DNA of 64,000 nt from Bacteroidales bacterium. GTDB lineage: Bacteria; Bacteroidota; Bacteroidia; Bacteroidales; P3. Both the position numbers and the translations under genes were made by a program. How positions within the stretch are numbered: the stretch's first letter is position 1; every line of letters begins with the position of its first letter. The notes under the pieces were generated by a model. The model worked only from the letters and a program-made list of their open reading frames with translations, did not search any database and was not told where the DNA came from. The stretch lies in contig JAFWZP010000096.1 in assembly GCA_017522255.1 (NCBI GenBank), forward strand, positions 1-64,000, read 5' to 3'. Shown here in pieces: positions 3,001-62,084 of the stretch.

Positions 3001-3849
3001 CACTATGCTGTCCATATTGTTCATACGCAGCTGTATGCGCACTATACTGTCGGTATAGCCCGTGGCATTCAGTGGTCTCAACTCGTTTACAGCAAATGGG
3101 TCGGCGGTTATCATTATAATGCTGTCGCCTACCTTGGCATTGGTATTTACTATGGCACGTCGCTCGATGGCTCCGGCATATAGCGGATTATAGGTAATGG
3201 TGAAAGTATGCGTACTGCCGGCTTCGATATTTGCCGTTGCCGGTGTATGCGTAAGTGTGGCATCGCCGGTGGTTATTCCGTTTATAGCCAGTGGCTGATT
3301 GCCTATATTGCTGACGGTTACAGTGCGGGTGTAGGTCGATAGTATGGGTATATGTCCATAGTTGATAGCCGAGGTAGATACCGACACCTTGGGTGCCAAT
3401 ATAGTGGCAGTGCCTGCTGTGGTTTGCAGTGGCAGTGCATTGCCCGATGCGTCGGAGAGTATGGCATTGCACAGTGGCATGGTATATGTTGCCGGCTCTT
3501 GACGGGCAATAAGTTGAAAACTTAATATCTCGCCACTGTTGCCATTGTATGGTAGCAACGATAGTGAGTAGGAATATATCCTAAGGGTATCGTCGAGTAC
3601 CATTGCAGTGAGGGCATGACCATTGGCACGTGATGACAAGGTACACGAACCTTCCACGTAGCCGAACTGCCCATGTAGCGGCACCATGGCTTGCAGTGCC
3701 ACGGGGCTGTCGCTGTTAGACAGCGACAAGGAAAACGTCAGCGTGTCGGCCGGACGACCTTGAGCCTCACTCAAGGTCATCACATTATCGGCACGGCTGC
3801 CACCGTATATTGCACCAAGCAATATAAGTGTTATAAGGAGCTTTTTCAT
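7..3849 (-). CDS. T9SS-secreted cohesin-like, ASH and Cys-Asp-Ser repeat surface protein
   Basis: Large secreted protein of 1280 aa. A signal peptide (residues 1-20) is followed by alternating modules: three cohesin-like beta domains (about 22-150, 255-385, 490-620) interleaved with two choice-of-anchor-D/ASH-like domains, an InlB-B-like domain (about 635-700), a tail of about eight to nine tandem units of about 51 residues carrying the CDSYTWIDG and GCDSV motifs (about 740-1205), and a C-terminal type A T9SS sorting domain (about 1215-1280, starting FYPNPTSG). The protein should cross the outer membrane by T9SS and be attached at the surface. It starts 23 bp after the stop of the S8 protease gene, so the two are probably one operon. 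The repeats suggest an adhesin or scaffold. No catalytic motif is visible. Cohesin and ASH assignments are by pattern and should be confirmed by profile search. Confidence 0.85.
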   Translation of the reverse strand: MKKLLITLILLGAIYGGSRADNVMTLSEAQGRPADTLTFSLSLSNSDSPVALQAMVPLHGQFGYVEGSCTLSSRANGHALTAMVLDDTLRIYSYSLSLLPYNGNSGEILSFQLIARQEPATYTMPLCNAILSDASGNALPLQTTAGTATILAPKVSVSTSAINYGHIPILSTYTRTVTVSNIGNQPLAINGITTGDATLTHTPATANIEAGSTHTFTITYNPLYAGAIERRAIVNTNAKVGDSIIMITADPFAVNELRPLNATGYTDSIVRIQLRMNNMDSIVGLQTSIKLPSSLIYVPGSFAVDSSRSQNHIATAGLQGDTLTMMIVSTENKPLRGGDGVVAYFDVQLHGYGSFTLNLRNTVLADTAERNGLSAVYTGRVSIQSPRIVCNASLDMGSSAVTGLPTSQYVVSNTGNAPLIIDRVLFMDPHFELVDSLPIVISSNYSRSINIRYTGTVEGNYSTTMQIYSNDPNNELKNVALSCHRYEPNSLYMQADSVPTFADATVEFVLENYSDITAVQMDFTYPHRHYVVNASDFALTNRASGHTASVARLNDSTFRVLFLSLQNSAFVGNDGIVGYVTLHPTDPTGVGSYTANISNVLVADQDGTNKLTTLDSIVHWNTFVQSFTISGNTNNDRCSIAGLGTYNSGSTVTLTANAGTNCSFLRWENGDTATTRTITVISDTTVYAYFMQTDSIMFNDVFCQGTVYNYGGTTINTAGTYYRQSGTEYFDTVYTLSLSMIAKVYDTIERVIGDNDTYTFNGTVLSQTGYYNDTLVASLTGCDSIVTLHLMVLPVITNYIYDTICQGNTYNQYGFSVSEAGLYGDTLQTSLGIDSIVFLSLAVMPNYTMATHDTICAGNSYTFGGNTYTQSGTYADTLASIFGCDSIVVLNLVVNSGTGSFDNIVACDSYTWIDGNTYTESNNTATYTLTNAAGCDSVITLNLTINRSTTYTDIVTACDSYTWIDGNTYTAGNNTATYTLTNVAGCDSVVTLNLTINQSTTGSDVQVVCDSFTWIDGVTYTESTNTPTYTLTAANGCDSVITLNLTVNHSIAVTDTVVACGSYTWIDGNTYTQSINTPTYTFTSVSGCDSVVTLNLTINPNATGIDTQVSCDSYTWIDGVTYTESTNTPTYTLTAANGCDSVVTLNLTINLSVHDTIVDTAINEYTWNGATYTESGVYMYEGVTTAGCDSIVTLMLTIQAIGIEGIDILSELTFYPNPTSGTITFNRTDINKVEVLDAVGRTVAVYENAHIIDISKLTKGYYTMRITTAEGVAVRKVVRN
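230..1590 (-). repeat. In-gene tandem repeat, about 153 bp unit
   Basis: DNA for the Cys-Asp-Ser repeat tail of the surface protein. The complement of GCDSV recurs at about 153-bp steps (near 428, 577, 735, 889, 1043 and 1194). Five central units are nearly identical and the outer ones have diverged. Units are mosaic: the segment ending TPTYTLTAANGCDSV is almost identical in two non-adjacent units, while their neighbours carry another version. This points to unequal exchange or gene conversion, and copy number is likely to vary between strains. Confidence 0.85.
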
Positions 3850-8415: not shown

Positions 8416-8659
8416 AATAGTCAATGCTTATATCTTTATATGTGTTAATTTATATATTTCTGTTTCTTATCGTTTTATTATTTATTGTTACATTATTGTT
8501 TATTAATCAAATAGAGGAAGATTTATCATAAATAGTCCTCCGTCGTGTTTTGCAAAGTTACGCATATTTTTGGAATAATGGTAATATTTGAGGAAATATT
8601 TTTGCACTTATATGTAAACAGATGTAACAATACCCCTTGCCCCCACAGCAACAACAGAC

Positions 8660-8701
8660 CGGCAAACAGCCAATAGCCAACGGCAAACAGCCAACAGCCA
8701 A
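8660..8701. repeat. Two tandem 21-nt direct repeats
   Basis: Two consecutive 21-nt units, both beginning CGGCAAACAGCCAA and differing at one base. They lie about 90 bp from a palindromic array of the same 21-nt period. Confidence 0.85.
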
Positions 8702-8793
8702 CCCCAAAAGACACGTCCTACAAACTGCCTATGAACGTTCCAAAAACTGTTTATAGACGTTTCTAAAATATATTTTGCCCGTTTCAAAAGTAT

Positions 8794-8872
8794 TTTCAAG
8801 CCTTGAAAGTATATTTTCAAAGCTTGAAAGTATACTTTCATGTCTTGAAAGTATATTTTCATGTCATGAAAA
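8794..8872. repeat. Palindromic word array A (21-nt period)
   Basis: Four units start at 8794, 8815, 8836 and 8857, exactly 21 nt apart. Each holds a 15-nt near-palindrome of the form TTTCAAAGCTTGAAA followed by a 6-nt AT-rich spacer (GTATAT or similar). The array is open in several reading frames because 21 is a multiple of three, but nothing else suggests coding. It shares architecture with array B at 51412 though the word differs. Confidence 0.85.
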
Positions 8873-8874
8873 TA

Positions 8875-8917
8875 GTTTTATAGTGGGGGTAGAGAAGTTT
8901 TGTGGCGGGGGAAAAGA
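8875..8917. repeat. Conserved border of array A
   Basis: This sequence (GTTTTATAGTGGGGG, then AGAGAAGTTTTGTGG) recurs in reverse complement at 51346-51387, next to array B. By eye about 33 of 40 positions agree. The remaining 265 bp to the second gldN copy hold nothing I can identify. Confidence 0.75.
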
Positions 8918-25953: not shown

Positions 25954-26057
25954 AGAGACGTTCCGCAATAAGAGACGTGCCGCGGCGCGTCTCTACGAAC
26001 GGCACGTCTCAAAAAATCAAAAAAAAACGGTACGTCTCCCACAAACGACACATCTCC
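25954..26057. repeat. Mirror-symmetric word array H (17-nt period)
   Basis: AGAGACG at 25954 and 25971, its complement CGTCTCT at 25988 and CGTCTC at 26005, all exactly 17 nt apart and symmetric about a GC-rich centre near 25982.5. Two further CRTCTC words follow near 26033 and 26051 with looser spacing. GC content is far above the surroundings. It lies in the 980-bp gap between the M16 protease and hemW. Confidence 0.8.
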
Positions 26058-26099
26058 CTTTCAAAGCATTATTCATAAGTTGACTTAAAGAGATTTTAC

Positions 26100-26228
26100 T
26101 TTACATCAAAAAACTTTTATGTTTACATCAAAAAACTTTTGCCTTTGCGTTAAACATATAGTGTCCGATATGTTTTGTATATAGTATCGCATAAGTTATA
26201 TTATTAGTATTCGATATATTTTATTTAT
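26100..26228. repeat. Two short sub-arrays (22-nt and 23-nt periods)
   Basis: Two copies of a 22-nt unit starting TTTACATCAAAAAACTTTT begin at 26100 and 26122. Then words of the form AGTATCG/AGTATTCG start at 26160, 26183 and 26206, exactly 23 nt apart. The same AGTATC word at the same 23-nt period forms the outer part of array D at 36985. Confidence 0.75.
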
Positions 26229-26234
26229 ACTTTG

Positions 26235-26291
26235 CTCACGTCGTGAGGAGATACCGCTCACGACGTGAGAGAATGTTCCTCACGACGTGAG
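26235..26291. repeat. Palindromic word array C (22-nt period)
   Basis: Three 13-nt palindromes CTCACGNCGTGAG start at 26235, 26257 and 26279, exactly 22 nt apart. The first is inverted relative to the other two at its central base. Spacers are unrelated. From 26292 to about 26500 the sequence is AT-rich with no gene I can recognise. Confidence 0.88.
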
Positions 26292-26509
26292 GACATTTAT
26301 ATCATAACAGGTGTAACACTATATATATAATATGTAGAGTAGTATATATATAACAGTTTCGGCACTATACTTCTTACGATAACGCAATTTTGTTTTAATG
26401 CAAAGACAATGGCCTGCAAACGATGTTGCAATAAGTTTCTGAAAATTCAAGTTTTAGGATATTAAAGAAAGCAACTTTAGGATTCAGCTCTTAGCCGTTA
26501 GTTTACTTA

Positions 26510-35580: not shown

Positions 35581-36573
35581 ATGATGAAAAAGATATTAAT
35601 AGGAATAACAGTGCTATCAATAGTAATGACATCGTGTGTGTCGATGGAAAAGTATGCAGCATTGGAGTCGAAAAACGACAGATTGAACAAACAATACTCG
35701 ATAACCAAAGACGAATTGGCAGCCACCAATAGCGAGAATAAACGCTTGTTGGAACAAAACAAGCAACTTAGAGGCACTATAAGCAATAACGAAAAAGACA
35801 TCGAACGCCTCAACGACGAGCTAAAACAGTTGAACGCTGAATACTCTGCAGCCAAAAAGAAATACGAAGAAACCACAGCTGCATATATGGCTCAGCTTAC
35901 GGGCAAAAACAATGATTTGACATCAGCACGTCTACTATTGGAAGAACGTGAAAAAGAACTCAACGAAAAAGAAAGTCGTTTGGAAGTGCTACAAAAAGAA
36001 TACGAAGAACGCAAAGAACACATGAACGACCTTACTCGCAAACTGGAAGAGAAAGAACAAGAATTGAAAAAAGCCCTCGAAGAAAAAGAACGAGCCATAA
36101 ACGAAATACGCCAAAAAGTAGCCGACGCTTTGGTAGGGTTTGAAAACAAAGGTTTGAAGATTGAGGTAAAAGATGGTAAAGTGTATGTATCGATGGAAGA
36201 TAAATTGCTGTTTGCTTCGGGTAGTTGGACAGTATCGGCAGAAGGTATGAAAGCCATAACCGAGCTATCAAAGATATTGGAAGAAAACACTGATATAAAT
36301 GTAATGGTGGAAGGACATACCGACAATGTGGCCTATCGTGGCAAAAACGAAGTAAAAGACAATTGGGATCTAAGTGTAATGCGTGCCACAGCCATAGTGA
36401 AAGCATTACTTAAAAACTCTACCATCGCCCCAAATCGTATAACCGCATCGGGAAGAGGCGAATATGTGCCTAAGGTAGACAATAGCACCAAAGAAAATCG
36501 TGCTATAAATCGTCGCACCGAAATTATACTTACTCCAAAATACGTAGAATTATTAGACATTCTTTCAAAATAA
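35581..36573 (+). CDS. OmpA-family lipoprotein with coiled coil
   Basis: 330 aa (or 329 from the second Met). Lipobox SIVMTSC at the N-terminus, a long Lys/Glu coiled coil (about 25-185), then an OmpA C-terminal domain (about 205-325) with EGHTDNVAYRG and RRTEIIL holding the Asp/Arg pair that binds peptidoglycan. It should tether outer membrane to wall. It lies 33 bp after xth, followed by a terminator. Confidence 0.9.
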   Translation: MMKKILIGITVLSIVMTSCVSMEKYAALESKNDRLNKQYSITKDELAATNSENKRLLEQNKQLRGTISNNEKDIERLNDELKQLNAEYSAAKKKYEETTAAYMAQLTGKNNDLTSARLLLEEREKELNEKESRLEVLQKEYEERKEHMNDLTRKLEEKEQELKKALEEKERAINEIRQKVADALVGFENKGLKIEVKDGKVYVSMEDKLLFASGSWTVSAEGMKAITELSKILEENTDINVMVEGHTDNVAYRGKNEVKDNWDLSVMRATAIVKALLKNSTIAPNRITASGRGEYVPKVDNSTKENRAINRRTEIILTPKYVELLDILSK

Positions 36574-36595
36574 AACGAACAATTTCATAACTTAT

Positions 36596-36625
36596 AAAGG
36601 GATATATCTTCGAGGTATATCCCTT
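36596..36625 (+). terminator. Terminator of the OmpA lipoprotein gene
   Basis: AAAGGGATATA and TATATCCCTTT form a stem around TCTTCGAGG, followed by ATTTATTTT. Confidence 0.85.
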
Positions 36626-36636
36626 TATTTATTTTA

Positions 36637-36910
36637 GGCAACTTCTAAAAATTCCACGTTTCGGAATGATAGTAGAATATTCTTTAAACTTTTGCGTGCT
36701 TTGCGTTGTTGACTTCGTCGATGTTGCTATCGCTCGAAAGAGCTAATGCTAAAGCATTGCTCTTTACTCGCTTAATCGCAACGTTACCGAAATCTTTCTA
36801 TTTCTATTTCTTTTTCAATCGCATAGCCCGCTATGCTCAATCAAAAGAAAGTAGAAATCTTTCTGGCAAAAACTCACAAAGCACCTGCAAAGCAATTTTT
36901 AGAAATTGCC
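36637..36910. mobile_element. GGCAA MITE-like element, copy 2 (274 bp)
   Basis: Terminal inverted repeats as in copy 1. Target duplication TTTA at 36633-36636 and 36911-36914. The central hairpin GCATAGCccGCTATGC is at 36821-36836. Long form with the extra 75-bp segment. It sits just behind the OmpA gene terminator. Confidence 0.9.
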
Positions 36911-36984
36911 TTTAGGCATTTTTCGCCCACCGCCGGATTACTTTTTCAAATAGCTTGAAGCACTTTTTCGTTACCGTTGACATG

Positions 36985-37195
36985 ATAGTATCGAAACTAT
37001 TGTGTGTATAGTATCAAAAGTACTGAAATAATAGTATTGAAACCACTGAAATCATGGTCTGTAAGTGGCACTTGCTAATCATGCAAGTGCCACTTGTAAG
37101 ATGCGCAAGTGGCACTTGCAGACCATATATACAATACTTTTGATAGTATCAATACAACTGTTTTGATACTATGCTTTCAGCACTTTCGATACTAT
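36985..37195. repeat. Mirror-symmetric nested word array D
   Basis: Left words ATAGTATC(G/A) or variants start at 36985, 37008, 37031 and 37054 (exact 23-nt steps). Central palindromes AAGTGSCACTT start at 37063, 37085 and 37107 (exact 22-nt steps). Inverted right words start at 37115, 37138, 37161 and 37184 (exact 23-nt steps). All are symmetric about position 37090. The words pair across the axis but the spacers do not, so this is not a simple hairpin. It lies between the convergent OmpA and S46 genes. From 37196 to 37395 I see no gene, only a weak MITE-end-like stretch near 37330-37352. Confidence 0.9.
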
Positions 37196-37394
37196 GTGTT
37201 CAAGCACGGAGAAAAACCGGTTTAACGGATTTGAAAAAACATTTCAACGGTTGCGAAAAACTGTCGCAACACCATTGCAATTCTTTTTCGCCTATAGTTG
37301 AAAGCAACTTCAACAAAATCAACATTTCACAAATTACATGCAAAGCAATTTTCAATAGCTGCTTACAAAAATTATTTTTCCTGATTTCATACAC

Positions 37395-37431
37395 TAAAAA
37401 AAGAGAGACACGCAAAAAGCGTGTCTCTCTT
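37395..37431 (-). terminator. Terminator of the S46 peptidase gene, displaced by a MITE
   Basis: GAGAGACACGC at 37403-37413 and GCGTGTCTCTC at 37419-37429 form a strong stem. On the minus strand a run of seven T follows. It lies about 230 bp after the S46 stop, with MITE copy 3 between. Confidence 0.85.
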
Positions 37432-37442
37432 CTTAAAGTAAA

Positions 37443-37637
37443 GGCAACTTCTAAAAATTCCACGTTTCGGAATGATAGAAGGACGTTCTTTGAAACTTTT
37501 GCGTGCTTTGCATTTTTTCTTGAAATCTTTCTATTTCTTTCTCAATCGCATAGCCCGCTATGCTCAATCAAAAGAAAGTAGAAATTTTCCTAAGAAAATT
37601 CCGCAAATCACCTGCAAAGCAATTTTTAGAAATTGCC
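37443..37637. mobile_element. GGCAA MITE-like element, copy 3 (195 bp)
   Basis: Terminal repeats intact. Target duplication TAAA at 37439-37442 and 37638-37641. The hairpin core GCATAGCccGCTATGC is present. Short form without the 75-bp segment. It is inserted between the S46 stop codon and its terminator. Confidence 0.9.
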
Positions 37638-37659
37638 TAAAAAGAATAGACGTTTGTTT

Positions 37660-39831
37660 CTATTCTATTATCGTCATTTCGTTGATAAGATTCTTAGCAC
37701 CTGCAAACTTGTCGATTATGAAAAGCATATAACGCACGTCGAGGTTGATGCAACGTTGCATATTTTCTTCAAAATCAATGTCGCCACTCATGGCTTCGCT
37801 GTTTCCATCGAAAGCCAAGCCTATCAAATGACCTTCGGCATTCATAACGGGGCTACCGCTGTTGCCGCCTGTAATGTCGTTGTTGGTAATAAAACAAGTA
37901 GGCAGTTCGCCCTTCTTGTTGGCATAGCGACCGTAATCCTTTGCAGCCCAAAGTTCTTTCAATTTGGCGGGAACTATAAATTCGGGATTCATCGGGTCTT
38001 CTTTTTCCATTACACCGTCCAAAGTAGTATAGTAGCTGTAATACACACCATCTCTTGGTTCGTAGGCCAAGCAGTTGCCGTAAGTACAACGGATAGTGCT
38101 GTTTGCATCAGGAGCGATAGGTTTATTGCCGTTCATATCCAACAAGCCATAAACAAACAAGCGTTGCATTCTGTCCATATCAGGAGCAGCATTTTTAACT
38201 TTTTTAGCCACAGCCACATATTCAACATAAGCACCCAAACCGGCTACCACCATAGGGTCTTTGGCAAGCTTTTTCAAGTTGGGTTTTTCCATGAATTTAG
38301 TAAAAGTTTCTTCGTTGGCGAAGACCGATTTTTTCATAGCGTCGGCAGCATATTTTTCAAAGTTGCCTTTGTATTTCTTGTTTATTTCGGCAAGGAATTC
38401 GGGGCAATATTCAGGCTCAATGTTTTTGTAAACGTATTCAAACATTGTGGCAATAGTCTTTTCTTCAAGTGTTTGGTCGTAATCTTTGTAGAAAGTTTTT
38501 ACTTCTTTCATTATTTCGTCCAATATAGCTTGTTTGTCTTGAACCGATGTTTGTTCATCGGCTTGCGACAACATGTTATATATGCCAAAAGCCATCATCG
38601 GCAATTCAGGACCACTAAGCAAACCTTCTGCCAAGTAGGTGCGTGCAGCCATATAGGGTTTGCGAGCTGTTACCATCTTTTCTATTTCCGATAGTACGTT
38701 TTGATATTTAGCATCTTTACCTTTAGCCCATTCGTTGTAGCGGCGTTCTATATCTTGCTTTACGCCGATGGTATTCAAAGCCTTAAGAGCCTTGTTTTGT
38801 TCGTTGGAGTATTTCCAATAGTTTGAGCAGCTGGCATATTTGGAGGCGTATTTAATCTTTACAGCTTGGTCGGCGTTCATAGCTGCCTTCCATACGTTAA
38901 TCTTTTGAGTACGTATTTCGTAGCGTAGCTTGTTGGTGATGTCCATCACTTCTTCAAGGCCATAGGAAGTTACAAAACGGTTTGTAGTACCGGGGAAACC
39001 CATAATCATGGCAAAGTCGTTTTCTTCCACACCTTTAATGTTGATAGGCAGGTGATGTTTAGGTTTCAAAGGCACATTGTCCTTGGAGTATTCGGCCGGC
39101 GAGCCGTCAGGAGCAGTGTAGATACGAAACATCGAGAAGTCGGCAGTATGGCGAGGCCACATCCAGTTGTCGGTATCGCCACCGAACTTACCCATCGATG
39201 AAGGAGGAGCACCTACCAAACGAACGTCCTTGTAAATATTGTGCACAAACAAGAAGAATTGGTTTCCGTTGAACATGCTCTTTACAGTGGCTTCGTAGTT
39301 GGTGCCTTCTTTAGCCTTGTCGGATATTTTTTTCGACACGTCGGCAATAGCTTTGTTGCGTTCAACCTCTGTCATATCGTCGTTAAGGACTGCAAGCACT
39401 TCTTTTGTAACGTCTTCTACACGTACAAGAATGGAAGCAGTAAGACCTGGATTAGGAAGTTCTTCTTCCATAGTATAAGCCCAAAAACCATCACGAAGAT
39501 AGTCGTGCTCTACGGTAGAGTGTTCTTGGATTTGACCATAACCGCAGTGGTGATTGGTAGTAAGCAATCCTTTGTCCGACACAATTTCGGCAGTACAGAA
39601 ATGCCAGAAAGGCGAGCCGGCGTTGCCAAGTCCCACTATAGCGTCTTTGATACAGCTTTGGTTGATATTGTAAATATCGTCGGCTGTAAGTTTAAAACCT
39701 TTTTGTTGCATATCGCTGTAGTTTTTGCCCAAAAGCGAGAGCAACCACATACCTTCGTCGGCCTTAACCGAGCTTGGTAAAAGCATAAGCATACTCAATG
39801 CCAATGCAAAAAATTTTACCTTTATATTCAT
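37660..39831 (-). CDS. dpp7: S46 dipeptidyl-peptidase (DPP7 type)
   Basis: 723 aa with signal peptide ending SVKADEG. Catalytic His in TTNHHCGY (94/95), Asp in the GGDTDNWMWPRHTADF region, Ser in TGGNSGSPVMN (about 660). The S1-pocket position in LAFDGNSEAM is Gly, the residue that in P. gingivalis distinguishes DPP7 (hydrophobic P1) from DPP11 (Arg, acidic P1). It should act in the periplasm, releasing dipeptides from the N-terminus of peptides. It fits with PepD and PepP nearby and an amino-acid-fermenting lifestyle. It lies 51 bp after rluB on the same strand. Confidence 0.9.
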   Translation of the reverse strand: MNIKVKFFALALSMLMLLPSSVKADEGMWLLSLLGKNYSDMQQKGFKLTADDIYNINQSCIKDAIVGLGNAGSPFWHFCTAEIVSDKGLLTTNHHCGYGQIQEHSTVEHDYLRDGFWAYTMEEELPNPGLTASILVRVEDVTKEVLAVLNDDMTEVERNKAIADVSKKISDKAKEGTNYEATVKSMFNGNQFFLFVHNIYKDVRLVGAPPSSMGKFGGDTDNWMWPRHTADFSMFRIYTAPDGSPAEYSKDNVPLKPKHHLPINIKGVEENDFAMIMGFPGTTNRFVTSYGLEEVMDITNKLRYEIRTQKINVWKAAMNADQAVKIKYASKYASCSNYWKYSNEQNKALKALNTIGVKQDIERRYNEWAKGKDAKYQNVLSEIEKMVTARKPYMAARTYLAEGLLSGPELPMMAFGIYNMLSQADEQTSVQDKQAILDEIMKEVKTFYKDYDQTLEEKTIATMFEYVYKNIEPEYCPEFLAEINKKYKGNFEKYAADAMKKSVFANEETFTKFMEKPNLKKLAKDPMVVAGLGAYVEYVAVAKKVKNAAPDMDRMQRLFVYGLLDMNGNKPIAPDANSTIRCTYGNCLAYEPRDGVYYSYYTTLDGVMEKEDPMNPEFIVPAKLKELWAAKDYGRYANKKGELPTCFITNNDITGGNSGSPVMNAEGHLIGLAFDGNSEAMSGDIDFEENMQRCINLDVRYMLFIIDKFAGAKNLINEMTIIE

Positions 39832-51145: not shown

Positions 51146-51345
51146 TATACAAAAAAAAGAGCCCCTCCCCCACTACGGAGAGGCGGCCCCAAAAATACAT
51201 CTTTGAAATAGTAAGCACACGCTATAATAACGAACAACAATATTGTTTGTTCAAAACAACCAAAAAAATATTTTGCAATATACTCCTTTAGCGAAACAAA
51301 ATTATCACACATATTTTTAGCAACAGGTTGTAGGCAACAAAATCA

Positions 51346-51387
51346 TTTCTTCCCCATCACAAAACTTCTCTTCCCACACTATAAAAC
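51346..51387. repeat. Conserved border of array B
   Basis: Contains CACAAAACTTCTCT followed by CCCACACTATAAAAC. It is the inverse of the border of array A at 8875-8917. A shorter inverted relative (CTTTTATAGTGGGGG) closes array B on its right at 51518-51532. Confidence 0.75.
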
Positions 51388-51411
51388 TTATTTCCACCGA
51401 CTACAAAACTA

Positions 51412-51495
51412 TATCCCAAGGTTTGGGACAAATATCCCAAAGTTTGGGACGAATATTTCAAAGCTTGGGACGAATATCCCAAACTTTGGGATATA
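51412..51495. repeat. Palindromic word array B (21-nt period)
   Basis: Four units start at 51412, 51433, 51454 and 51475, exactly 21 nt apart. The words are near-palindromes such as TCCCAAAGTTTGGGA with 6-nt spacers (ACGAAT or similar). The last unit is a perfect palindrome of 21 nt. Confidence 0.9.
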
Positions 51496-51670
51496 GAAAT
51501 ATGGCGGGGTTTGACAACTTTTATAGTGGGGGTAAAATGTTTTTGCTGTAAATAATTCTTTTACACATAATGCTAAGGTTCAGACAAATTAGCTACTAAT
51601 TATAACGGCATGTTATATTTTATTTACATTAATCTTATTTTATCTGTAAAGCTAATTCAGGACAAGACAC

Positions 51671-59987: not shown

Positions 59988-62084
59988 CTATTCTATATCA
60001 TCACTTCTTTTGACTCTATATCTTTGCTTAGGATGATGTGGTACATTATATTTTTTTTCTAAAACGTTCGATAGTTTAGGTAAAACAACATTTCGAATAT
60101 ATTGGTATTTTCGCCCAATAACTGTTGCAATCTCTTCCGCAGTTCTCCAATCGGTACAATATTCAACAATAATCCGCTCCATCTCTTCTTTCGAATATCT
60201 TTTCTTTTGAAGTCCGATATTAGAACCGGAAAGTCCGATATTAGTACCAGGAAGTCCGATATTAGCATCAGGAAGTCCGATATTAGCATCGGGAAGTGCA
60301 ATATTAGCATCAGGAAGTCCGATATTAGCATCAGGAAGTCCGATATTAGTATCAGAAAGTGCAATATTAGCATCGGGAAGTGCAATATTAGCATCGGGAA
60401 GTGCAATATTAGCATCAGGAAGTCCGATATTAGCATCGGGAAGTCCGATATTAGCATCAGGAAGTCCGATATTAGCATCGGGAAGTGCAATATTAGTATC
60501 AGAAAGTGCAATATTAGCATCGAGAAGTGCAATATTAGCATCGGGAAGTGCAATATTAGCATCGGGAAGTGCAATATTAGGAAGTCCGTATATATGATAT
60601 TTTGTTCCCCTACCATATCCGTTAGATTCTAAGTACTTCTGAGCACATAATCTACTTAACATTTGTGTAATATCAGTTCTATGCATATCCAATACATACT
60701 GCAAACGCTCATTTGTAATTTCTTCTTCCGAATAAGCCAATGCGAGAGTCATCAGCAATTGTCGTGGTAGTTTTTCTATATTTTCACCAAAATGTTTCAC
60801 TAAGTTTTGCATTACGGAATCATCTAATAATGACTCCATTTGCATAGTCAAAACAACTTTATTTGGCTTGCTTTTTTCTTCTATATAAGGATTCTTCCAA
60901 TTCTGTTCTTTCCACCCATGAATGATTTTATCTGCTCCACTTCCTGCCTTTTCTGCTAAGCCAAGAAATGTAAACATTGTTTGCAGATACTTATTCCTAC
61001 ATACGCTTTCACCCCCTTTATAATATTGTTTTAGGGAGATCAGCATAGTTCCGGGATTTGCAAACACCATTTTATTTGGATATTTGTAAATATTCAACGA
61101 AGCATTTACAGTATAGTCTGCATGAACAAGAGCATTAGTCAAAGCTTCTCTTATCGACACGCTAGCTGATGTTTCAGCTTTTCGTTGGTTGCCTTCCAAT
61201 ACAAATGGCTTTGGTAAGAAGTTTTGGAGTATAGGCAATACTCTGCTATAAAATTGAAATAGATTTGATTCCCAATTACCATCGGGGCAAATGCGATTCA
61301 CCCATCTGTCTTTTGGATCTTGTATTTCTTGATAGTCCGGAAAAAAATTGGGATTTTCATCCATAATAGCACTATAGCTTCCAAACATCAAAAGTCCGGC
61401 GTATGTCAAGCCATACTCTCCGGTTTTTCGATCTCTGCGGAATACATTCAGTTTTTCCAAAAACTCATCTTCAGATAATGCGTTCCACACATGATCAGGA
61501 TTCCATTGCTCAAATCTGCGACGGTATTGTTTTATAGAATCAATATCCAAATCCTTTTTACTGAAATTCTTTAGAATACGTCCGTCTATTGGACTTGCCA
61601 AATTTGCATCGGCAAACATACTATTTACTTCTTCTCTTGTGCAATGATAGTCACCATCAAGATCCCGTCTATAAGTTCCGGTATAAGGATCAAGTCCACA
61701 ATATACGGGTTTAAAACTTCTATCTGCCTTAGGAATATAAAAGAAAACAAAATAACTCTTATCAAATTCAACAATTTCTACATCTGTCTCTTTCAGTAAT
61801 GGAATATTTATTTTCTCTTTGTTATGCATACTATTGAAAAAGTCCTTTTCGTACTTTTTCGCTTGTTCTTTCGTCAGGCCATCTAAAAAGAATTGCTCAT
61901 CTTTTTCTTTGATTCCAAATATAATTGCACCTCCATCAGTGTTGGCAAACGATGAATATGTTTCCCAAAATGAATGAGGAAAACCACCCTTGGCAGACTT
62001 AAACTCCAAATCTGCAGATTCTTTGTTCTCTAACAATTTATCTAAAACAAGTTCTATATCTTTGTATTCATATATCCTTTTCAT
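59988..62084 (-). CDS. Schlafen AlbA_2/HATPase-like ATP-binding protein with internal repeats
   Basis: 698 aa. AlbA_2 Schlafen-type N-terminal domain (about 10-140; ESADLEFKSAKGG, NTDGGAIIFGI), then the HATPase_c_4 region (about 320-430; SIREALTNALVHADY, NPGTM, GSGADKI), a first winged-helix part, a stretch of about 18 seven-residue repeats NIALPDA/NIGLPDA (about 500-625), and a C-terminal winged helix (about 640-690). Such proteins are presumed nucleic-acid-binding regulators, often of accessory character. The repeat tract is of unusual regularity. The gene is flanked by 47-bp direct repeats. Confidence 0.85.
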   Translation of the reverse strand: MKRIYEYKDIELVLDKLLENKESADLEFKSAKGGFPHSFWETYSSFANTDGGAIIFGIKEKDEQFFLDGLTKEQAKKYEKDFFNSMHNKEKINIPLLKETDVEIVEFDKSYFVFFYIPKADRSFKPVYCGLDPYTGTYRRDLDGDYHCTREEVNSMFADANLASPIDGRILKNFSKKDLDIDSIKQYRRRFEQWNPDHVWNALSEDEFLEKLNVFRRDRKTGEYGLTYAGLLMFGSYSAIMDENPNFFPDYQEIQDPKDRWVNRICPDGNWESNLFQFYSRVLPILQNFLPKPFVLEGNQRKAETSASVSIREALTNALVHADYTVNASLNIYKYPNKMVFANPGTMLISLKQYYKGGESVCRNKYLQTMFTFLGLAEKAGSGADKIIHGWKEQNWKNPYIEEKSKPNKVVLTMQMESLLDDSVMQNLVKHFGENIEKLPRQLLMTLALAYSEEEITNERLQYVLDMHRTDITQMLSRLCAQKYLESNGYGRGTKYHIYGLPNIALPDANIALPDANIALLDANIALSDTNIALPDANIGLPDANIGLPDANIGLPDANIALPDANIALPDANIALSDTNIGLPDANIGLPDANIALPDANIGLPDANIGLPGTNIGLSGSNIGLQKKRYSKEEMERIIVEYCTDWRTAEEIATVIGRKYQYIRNVVLPKLSNVLEKKYNVPHHPKQRYRVKRSDDIE
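60211..60588. repeat. 21-nt coding tandem repeat in the Schlafen-like gene
   Basis: About 18 units of 21 nt (on the plus strand around GATATTAGCATC or CAATATTAGCATC) encode NIxLPDA. Two main alleles (Ala or Gly at position 3) alternate in blocks. All six frames stay largely open through it, so false frames exist on the other strand. Copy number is likely variable. Confidence 0.9.

Follow-up and report, generated by a model that had tools for sequence, protein, structure and literature searches.

What kind of element is an intergenic DNA segment in which short words are repeated at a fixed step and every word has an exactly placed mirror partner on the other side? This question is raised by a 211-bp array in the window analysed here, a stretch of 64,000 nucleotides of a Bacteroidales bacterium (assembly GCA_017522255.1, contig JAFWZP010000096.1, positions 1 to 64,000). 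The array lies between ompA and a peptidase S46 gene (Table 1) and was described in a first-pass annotation as four left words and four inverted right words in 23-nt steps, placed symmetrically around three central palindromes in 22-nt steps, with spacers that do not pair. We find that it belongs to a large and apparently undescribed class of nested mirror arrays in gut Bacteroidales, built from short words repeated every 21–23 bases, members of which sit directly upstream of genes for HU-type DNA-binding proteins of the HU-HIG family (PF18291), in front of nearly every gene of one such family. The arrays are most likely multi-site landing platforms for those proteins, although binding is inferred from sequence and genome context alone.

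Architecture of the array and its relatives

The mirror array is real, and the observation is confirmed. The two 105-nt arms are 71% complementary, and the inverted repeat has a score of 10.25 against 3.3 +/- 0.46 (maximum 5.25) in 200 first-order shuffles. The words mirror to the base, with left words beginning at 36985, 37008, 37031 and 37054 matched by right words ending at 37195, 37172, 37149 and 37126, and in this copy the 8-nt words are 92% mirror-identical and the 15-nt spacers 51%. The 23-nt units (ATAGTATCgAAAGTrCTGAAAt) flank three odd palindromes (GCAAGTGSCACTTGC). There are, however, three corrections to the first-pass annotation. First, the four words per side are three full 23-nt units plus a junction half-word, and the 3+3 arrangement holds in the full-length relatives. 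Second, across the family the spacers are not free, as A10, T14, T17 and A20 are nearly invariant, so that the putative recognised unit spans about 20 of 23 nt. Third, Array H, which had been taken as a second, smaller mirror-symmetric case, is real but of another kind; it lacks the 22-nt pitch (lag 17) and is part of a longer GAGACGTGCCG tandem repeat that is expanded in genus-mate G005.

Table 1. Coordinates of features in the 64,000-nt window (M, 23-nt unit; I, inner palindrome; O, outer word)
Positions	Strand	Feature	Sequence or relationship
ends 36573	+	ompA	
36637-36914 and 37443-37640		separate MITE-like repeat flanking the array on both sides	AGGCAACTTCTAAAAATTCCACG ... AAAGCAATTTTTAGAAATTGCCT; often directly beside arrays, also near the C16, C29, C10 and C74 arrays
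36941-36984	+	outer layer, left	decayed O words (ACTTTTTCAAATAGCTTGAAGCACTTTTTCG...), about 22-nt steps; homology of flanks among elements
36985-37089 and 37091-37195		arms of the inverted repeat	
36985-37007	+	M unit L1 (23 nt)	ATAGTATCGAAACTATTGTGTGT
37008-37030	+	M unit L2	ATAGTATCAAAAGTACTGAAATA
37031-37053	+	M unit L3	ATAGTATTGAAACCACTGAAATC
37054-37060	+	junction half-word	ATGGTCT (half-word ATGGTCTG at 37054)
37061-37075	.	inner palindrome I1, centre 37068	GTAAGTGGCACTTGC
37083-37097	.	inner palindrome I2, centre 37090 (centre of the mirror)	GCAAGTGCCACTTGT
37105-37119	.	inner palindrome I3, centre 37112	GCAAGTGGCACTTGC
37120-37126	-	mirrored junction half-word	AGACCAT
37127-37149	-	M unit R3 (inverted)	
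37150-37172	-	M unit R2 (inverted)	
37173-37195	-	M unit R1 (inverted)	
37196-37290	-	outer layer, right	decayed inverted O words (GGAGAAAAACCGGTTTAACGG...); whole 351-bp stretch 78% identical to the array before an HU-HIG operon in G005
37660-39831	-	peptidase S46 gene	
8622-8912	.	orphan array of the 21-nt family	inner TTGAAAGTATACTTTCAA; 83% identical over 117 nt to the array before the single HU-HIG gene at C104
18043-18152	.	short 22-nt array	ACATCACGAGG
25954-26010		Array H	GAGACGTGCCG inverted repeats (25954-26060)
26085-26398	.	second orphan nested mirror array	ATAGT-type words, inner CTCACGACGTGAG x3, 22-nt steps; homologous to the array before the HU-HIG triad at G000 C44:18620
51335-51513	.	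orphan array of the same 21-nt family	inner CCCAAASTTTGGG, outer CCCACACTATAAAACTT mirrored; related to the array before HU-HIG at C58:37601
60189-60612		21-nt (7-codon) tandem repeat, in frame in the SLFN/AlbA ORF 59988-62084	same pitch as the intergenic arrays

DNA similarity identifies relatives only within the genus (5 of 61 genomes, all genus g1), where the array is one of at least 13 copies. Twelve full-length elements read side by side have the same plan, with decayed outer words (about ATGCCTGAAACACTTTTTACAG, 22-nt steps), three M units on the left and three on the right (the right inner unit of the C74 element is decayed), and three to seven inner 22-nt palindrome positions; one locus (G1C3) is smaller, with a 2+2 arrangement and one palindrome. 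The inner words differ by locus (GCAAGTGSCACTTGC, AAAGTCGGCAACTTT, GAAAAAGGCTTTTTC). Total lengths are 211, 233, 277 and 299, that is 145+22n, in 10 of the 12 elements, and the other two are 1 nt short. Mirrored M units of the same element are 69.7% identical and those of different elements 68.8% (permutation p=0.28), whereas T5 and A10 are invariant and A1, T2 and T17 are 97% conserved on both sides. Neither compensatory change nor arm-to-arm copying is thus needed to explain the symmetry, which is explained by a motif conserved at fixed spacing and in opposite orientation. With units 22% diverged from consensus, the near absence of indels points to selection on spacing, although this is an inference. 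In one orthologous pair, C29 in genome G000 and C3 in genus-mate G001 (same left neighbour and similar left flank, aligned by eye), the array is 3M-4I-3M in one and 2M-1I-2M in the other, so the change kept the symmetry.

The first-pass interpretation, that this is not a plain hairpin and that selection or copying acts on words and distance, is partly supported. Its core survives the comparisons above, and also a test proposed with it, the inspection of the orthologous gap in related genomes: in the gap after the S46 gene, genus-mate G004 has a complete mirror array with entirely different words (GATAGTCGACAAACTTCGGC, inner CTAACGSCGTTAG), and G003 has none. It is not correct in treating the spacers as unconserved, in the word count, or in its reading of Array H, and the link to HU-HIG genes could not be seen from the window. 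In the gap after the M16 gene, G001 shares the array at 26085–26398, G005 lacks it, and G003 has a different one; array position turns over quickly.

An unbiased lag scan of the window identified 18 periodic stretches, nearly all at lag 21–23 or the double, against 0.2 in shuffles. In the 850 kb of the genome included in the census, 47 of 59 non-coding periodic stretches have a lag of 20–24, mostly 22. They occur in convergent (8), divergent (8) and tandem (18) gaps, and a role as terminators between convergent genes is rejected. A search against Rfam covariance models found only a tRNA in the window, and the arrays do not resemble CRISPRs, as on inspection the palindromes are in direct 22-nt steps without unique spacers. 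A pattern scan of viral sequences gave five hits.

Association with HU-HIG genes

The genome has 39 matches to HU-HIG, none of them on this contig, and the window copy is thus an orphan; its 78% homologue in G005, however, is upstream of a triad (three HU-HIG genes in a row). Triads and some single-gene classes in the genome have a nested array directly upstream, each with its own palindrome, whereas another HU-HIG class in the same genome (loci L055, L059, L066 and L068) has none. In four genus-mates, 20 of 20 type-1 HU-HIG loci carry a 22/23-nt array within 450 nt upstream, against 26 of 588 (4.4%) control genes (Fisher p=4e-25), or 19 of 130 genes with at least 250 nt of free upstream DNA (p=2e-14). 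Some of the 20 are duplicates or paralogs (L376 and L380 look identical), so the p-values overstate independence. At one locus (L036, C30 of G003) a DpnII-like restriction-modification gene set, named by eye from translations, appears divergent from the triad, with the array between them.

All 26 HU-HIG arrays tested are mirror-symmetric. They contain 54 perfect odd 13-mer palindromes (4.7 expected), of which 43 have a central GNC, and all 23 centre-to-centre spacings between 15 and 30 nt are 22. The arms vary freely by locus (CTTATG, CTAACG, CTCACG, CCCAAA, CAAGTG and others) while pitch and centre stay. Most multi-copy array families of the genome include an HU-HIG-linked member: the window arrays at 8622 and 51335 group with those before the C104 and C58 HU-HIG genes, 26085–26398 with that before the C44:18620 triad, and 36985–37195 with those before the C44:40482 and C103 HU-HIG genes. 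A family of seven arrays (C19_16758 and others) has no HU-HIG member in the sample, and about 4 of 43 merged noncoding arrays in the 850 kb lie next to HU-HIG, so that orphans far outnumber HU-HIG-linked arrays.

Arrays with a lag of 21–23 also lie next to HU-HIG genes in other genera of the family and in two other families, although many HU-HIG genes in genome G059 show none at this threshold. Five relatives with only 2–3 HU-HIG hits had one such array in 383 kb, and five HU-HIG-rich relatives had 17 in 286 kb, although one of these (G024, 23 hits) had none in a 68-kb sample. A wider scan for ATAVTATY x3 at 23 nt gave many chance hits in AT-rich genomes, and only multi-hit Bacteroidales and HU-HIG-adjacent hits were used; in named genomes found only by this word pattern, HU-HIG genes lie immediately beside the array in Porphyromonas gulae, Segatella maculosa and Bacteroidales RUG429. 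We note that a yak-rumen Bacteroidaceae (L089 and other RGIG10229 loci) has 23-nt ATASTATT words next to a block of CTGGCGCCAG palindromes, a similar two-layer design with another vocabulary.

Possible roles and related systems

The explanation we favour, with moderate confidence, is that the arrays are protein-DNA platforms. In this view words at a 21–23-bp pitch (about two DNA turns) would be recognised by dimeric HU/IHF-fold proteins of the HU-HIG family, with the odd palindromes (N6-GNC-N6', 22-bp pitch) being symmetric sites for a homodimer, and the asymmetric 23-bp M units, inverted on the two sides, being sites for another dimer or paralog combination, such that a two-fold symmetric nucleoprotein structure would assemble outward from the centre. 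The copies upstream of HU-HIG operons would be autoregulatory operators, and orphans, including the window copy, further binding sites used for local control or nucleoid organisation in any gene arrangement. The protein matches solved HU and IHF structures; HU/IHF proteins are dimers, and homodimers suit palindromes whereas IHF-like heterodimers suit asymmetric sites. The architecture, the quantized pitch, the absence of mirror covariation, the palindrome rules and the association with HU-HIG genes are established by the sequence comparisons, while binding of the arrays by HU-HIG proteins, the assignment of paralogs to layers, and any regulatory outcome are inferred. The variation in palindrome arms is as expected of evolving dimer specificity, but the inner words (A, B and C) differ between operons whose type-1 proteins are 71–91% identical, so type 1 alone cannot set their specificity, and we reject the idea that the inner word is set by the type-1 protein. 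Moreover, HU homologues studied so far mostly bind with little sequence specificity, and P. gingivalis HU PG0121 was non-discriminatory in vitro (PMC3969353).

A second explanation, which seems unlikely, is that the arrays are non-autonomous mobile elements that multiply in the genome, with HU-HIG operons as carriers or beneficiaries and the words as transposition signals. There are near-identical arrays at unrelated loci (C41_14839 and window 8551–8903, 93% over 355 bp; C74 and C44, 83% over 706 bp), which show duplication, as well as presence, absence or replacement at orthologous gaps, the words are family-specific, and some copies begin and end at TTAA, although this is seen in one family only and the boundaries of repeated copies are unlike between families. 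However, no consistent terminal inverted repeats or target duplications were seen. In addition, different families share pitch and architecture but not sequence, the C74–C44 homology runs to just before the HU-HIG start codon as in a segmental duplication, and strict 22-nt quantization is not needed for a MITE.

It is less likely still that a long RNA stem-loop or DNA cruciform is the functional form. The arm complementarity and the mirroring of all arrays tested are consistent with this, a perfect palindrome (CACTTTTTGTTTTTGCCTGCAGGCAAAAACAAAAAGTG) at the edge of an array in G001 C3 (L040, about 3040–3110) looks by eye like hairpin-templated copying, and P. gingivalis HU has been linked to a 77-bp inverted repeat before the capsule operon (PMC3969353). 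However, mirrored partners do not covary, a few positions are invariant on both sides whatever the partner does, and indels that a stem would tolerate are almost absent. A neutral copying process such as slippage or template switching, with HU-HIG genes merely sitting where arrays survive, is very unlikely, because although arrays are frequent and dynamic between species, it does not fit the HU-HIG association, the fixed 3+3 layout, the exact 22-nt pitch, the invariant motif positions, or the design shared by several families.

No report of nested mirror arrays or of their link to HU-HIG was found in the literature searched, although there are several related systems. The BrickBuilt element of Porphyromonas gingivalis (PMC4596501), described as a species-restricted minisatellite/MITE, is intergenic with 23-nt steps, and its consensus AGAYCATARTATCCTCTCRTRTG contains the same ATARTATC word; in P. 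gulae an array of this unit lies directly upstream of an HU-HIG gene. It was described as a plain direct repeat with leader and tail, and in the parts of that description consulted there are no nested mirror layers or link to HU-HIG. The window M unit shares ATAGTATC and the 23-nt pitch with BrickBuilt but differs in the other 15 nt, and the IS5-like terminal inverted repeat GAGACCTTTGCA is not present in the flanks (window 36400–37800). PG0121 and the 77-bp inverted repeat are a functional precedent, linking an HU-fold protein to a long imperfect inverted repeat in a Bacteroidales genome, and loss of PG0121 lowers capsule-gene transcription; PG0121 is described as similar to E. coli HU, and no iterated words or quantized pitch are described (PMC3969353). 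The BIME/REP elements of enterobacteria are intergenic mosaics of palindromes in many copies, bound in some BIMEs by the nucleoid protein IHF, but they are not known to have a conserved 21–23-nt pitch or nested mirror layers, or to be placed before the gene of the binding protein. Iteron arrays and multi-site operators have direct repeats of about 22 nt next to the gene of the protein that binds them, with helical phasing, but iterons are direct repeats at replication origins, whereas here the layers are mirrored, the vocabulary changes by locus, and copies are dispersed.

A more speculative and doubtful possibility is that Bacteroidales genomes carry a combinatorial, evolving code in which paralogous HU-HIG proteins recognise locus-specific palindromes at fixed two-turn pitch and build symmetric nested complexes, which would make a lineage-specific chromosome-organising or silencing system with about a hundred sites per genome. 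Three HU-HIG paralogs per operon would match the three nested layers (O, M and I), but this is only a suggestion, and some operons with layered arrays show only the type-1 gene in the stretch read. HU and IHF proteins are usually treated as weakly specific DNA benders, and if an expanded HU family binds locus-specific palindromes at fixed pitch, this would be a new kind of sequence-coded nucleoid or regulatory system in dominant gut and oral bacteria. It would also suggest a function for the 22–23-nt minisatellites of Porphyromonas, and it makes the question of what the many HU-HIG paralogs do directly testable, as each operon of these classes appears to carry its own candidate binding site.
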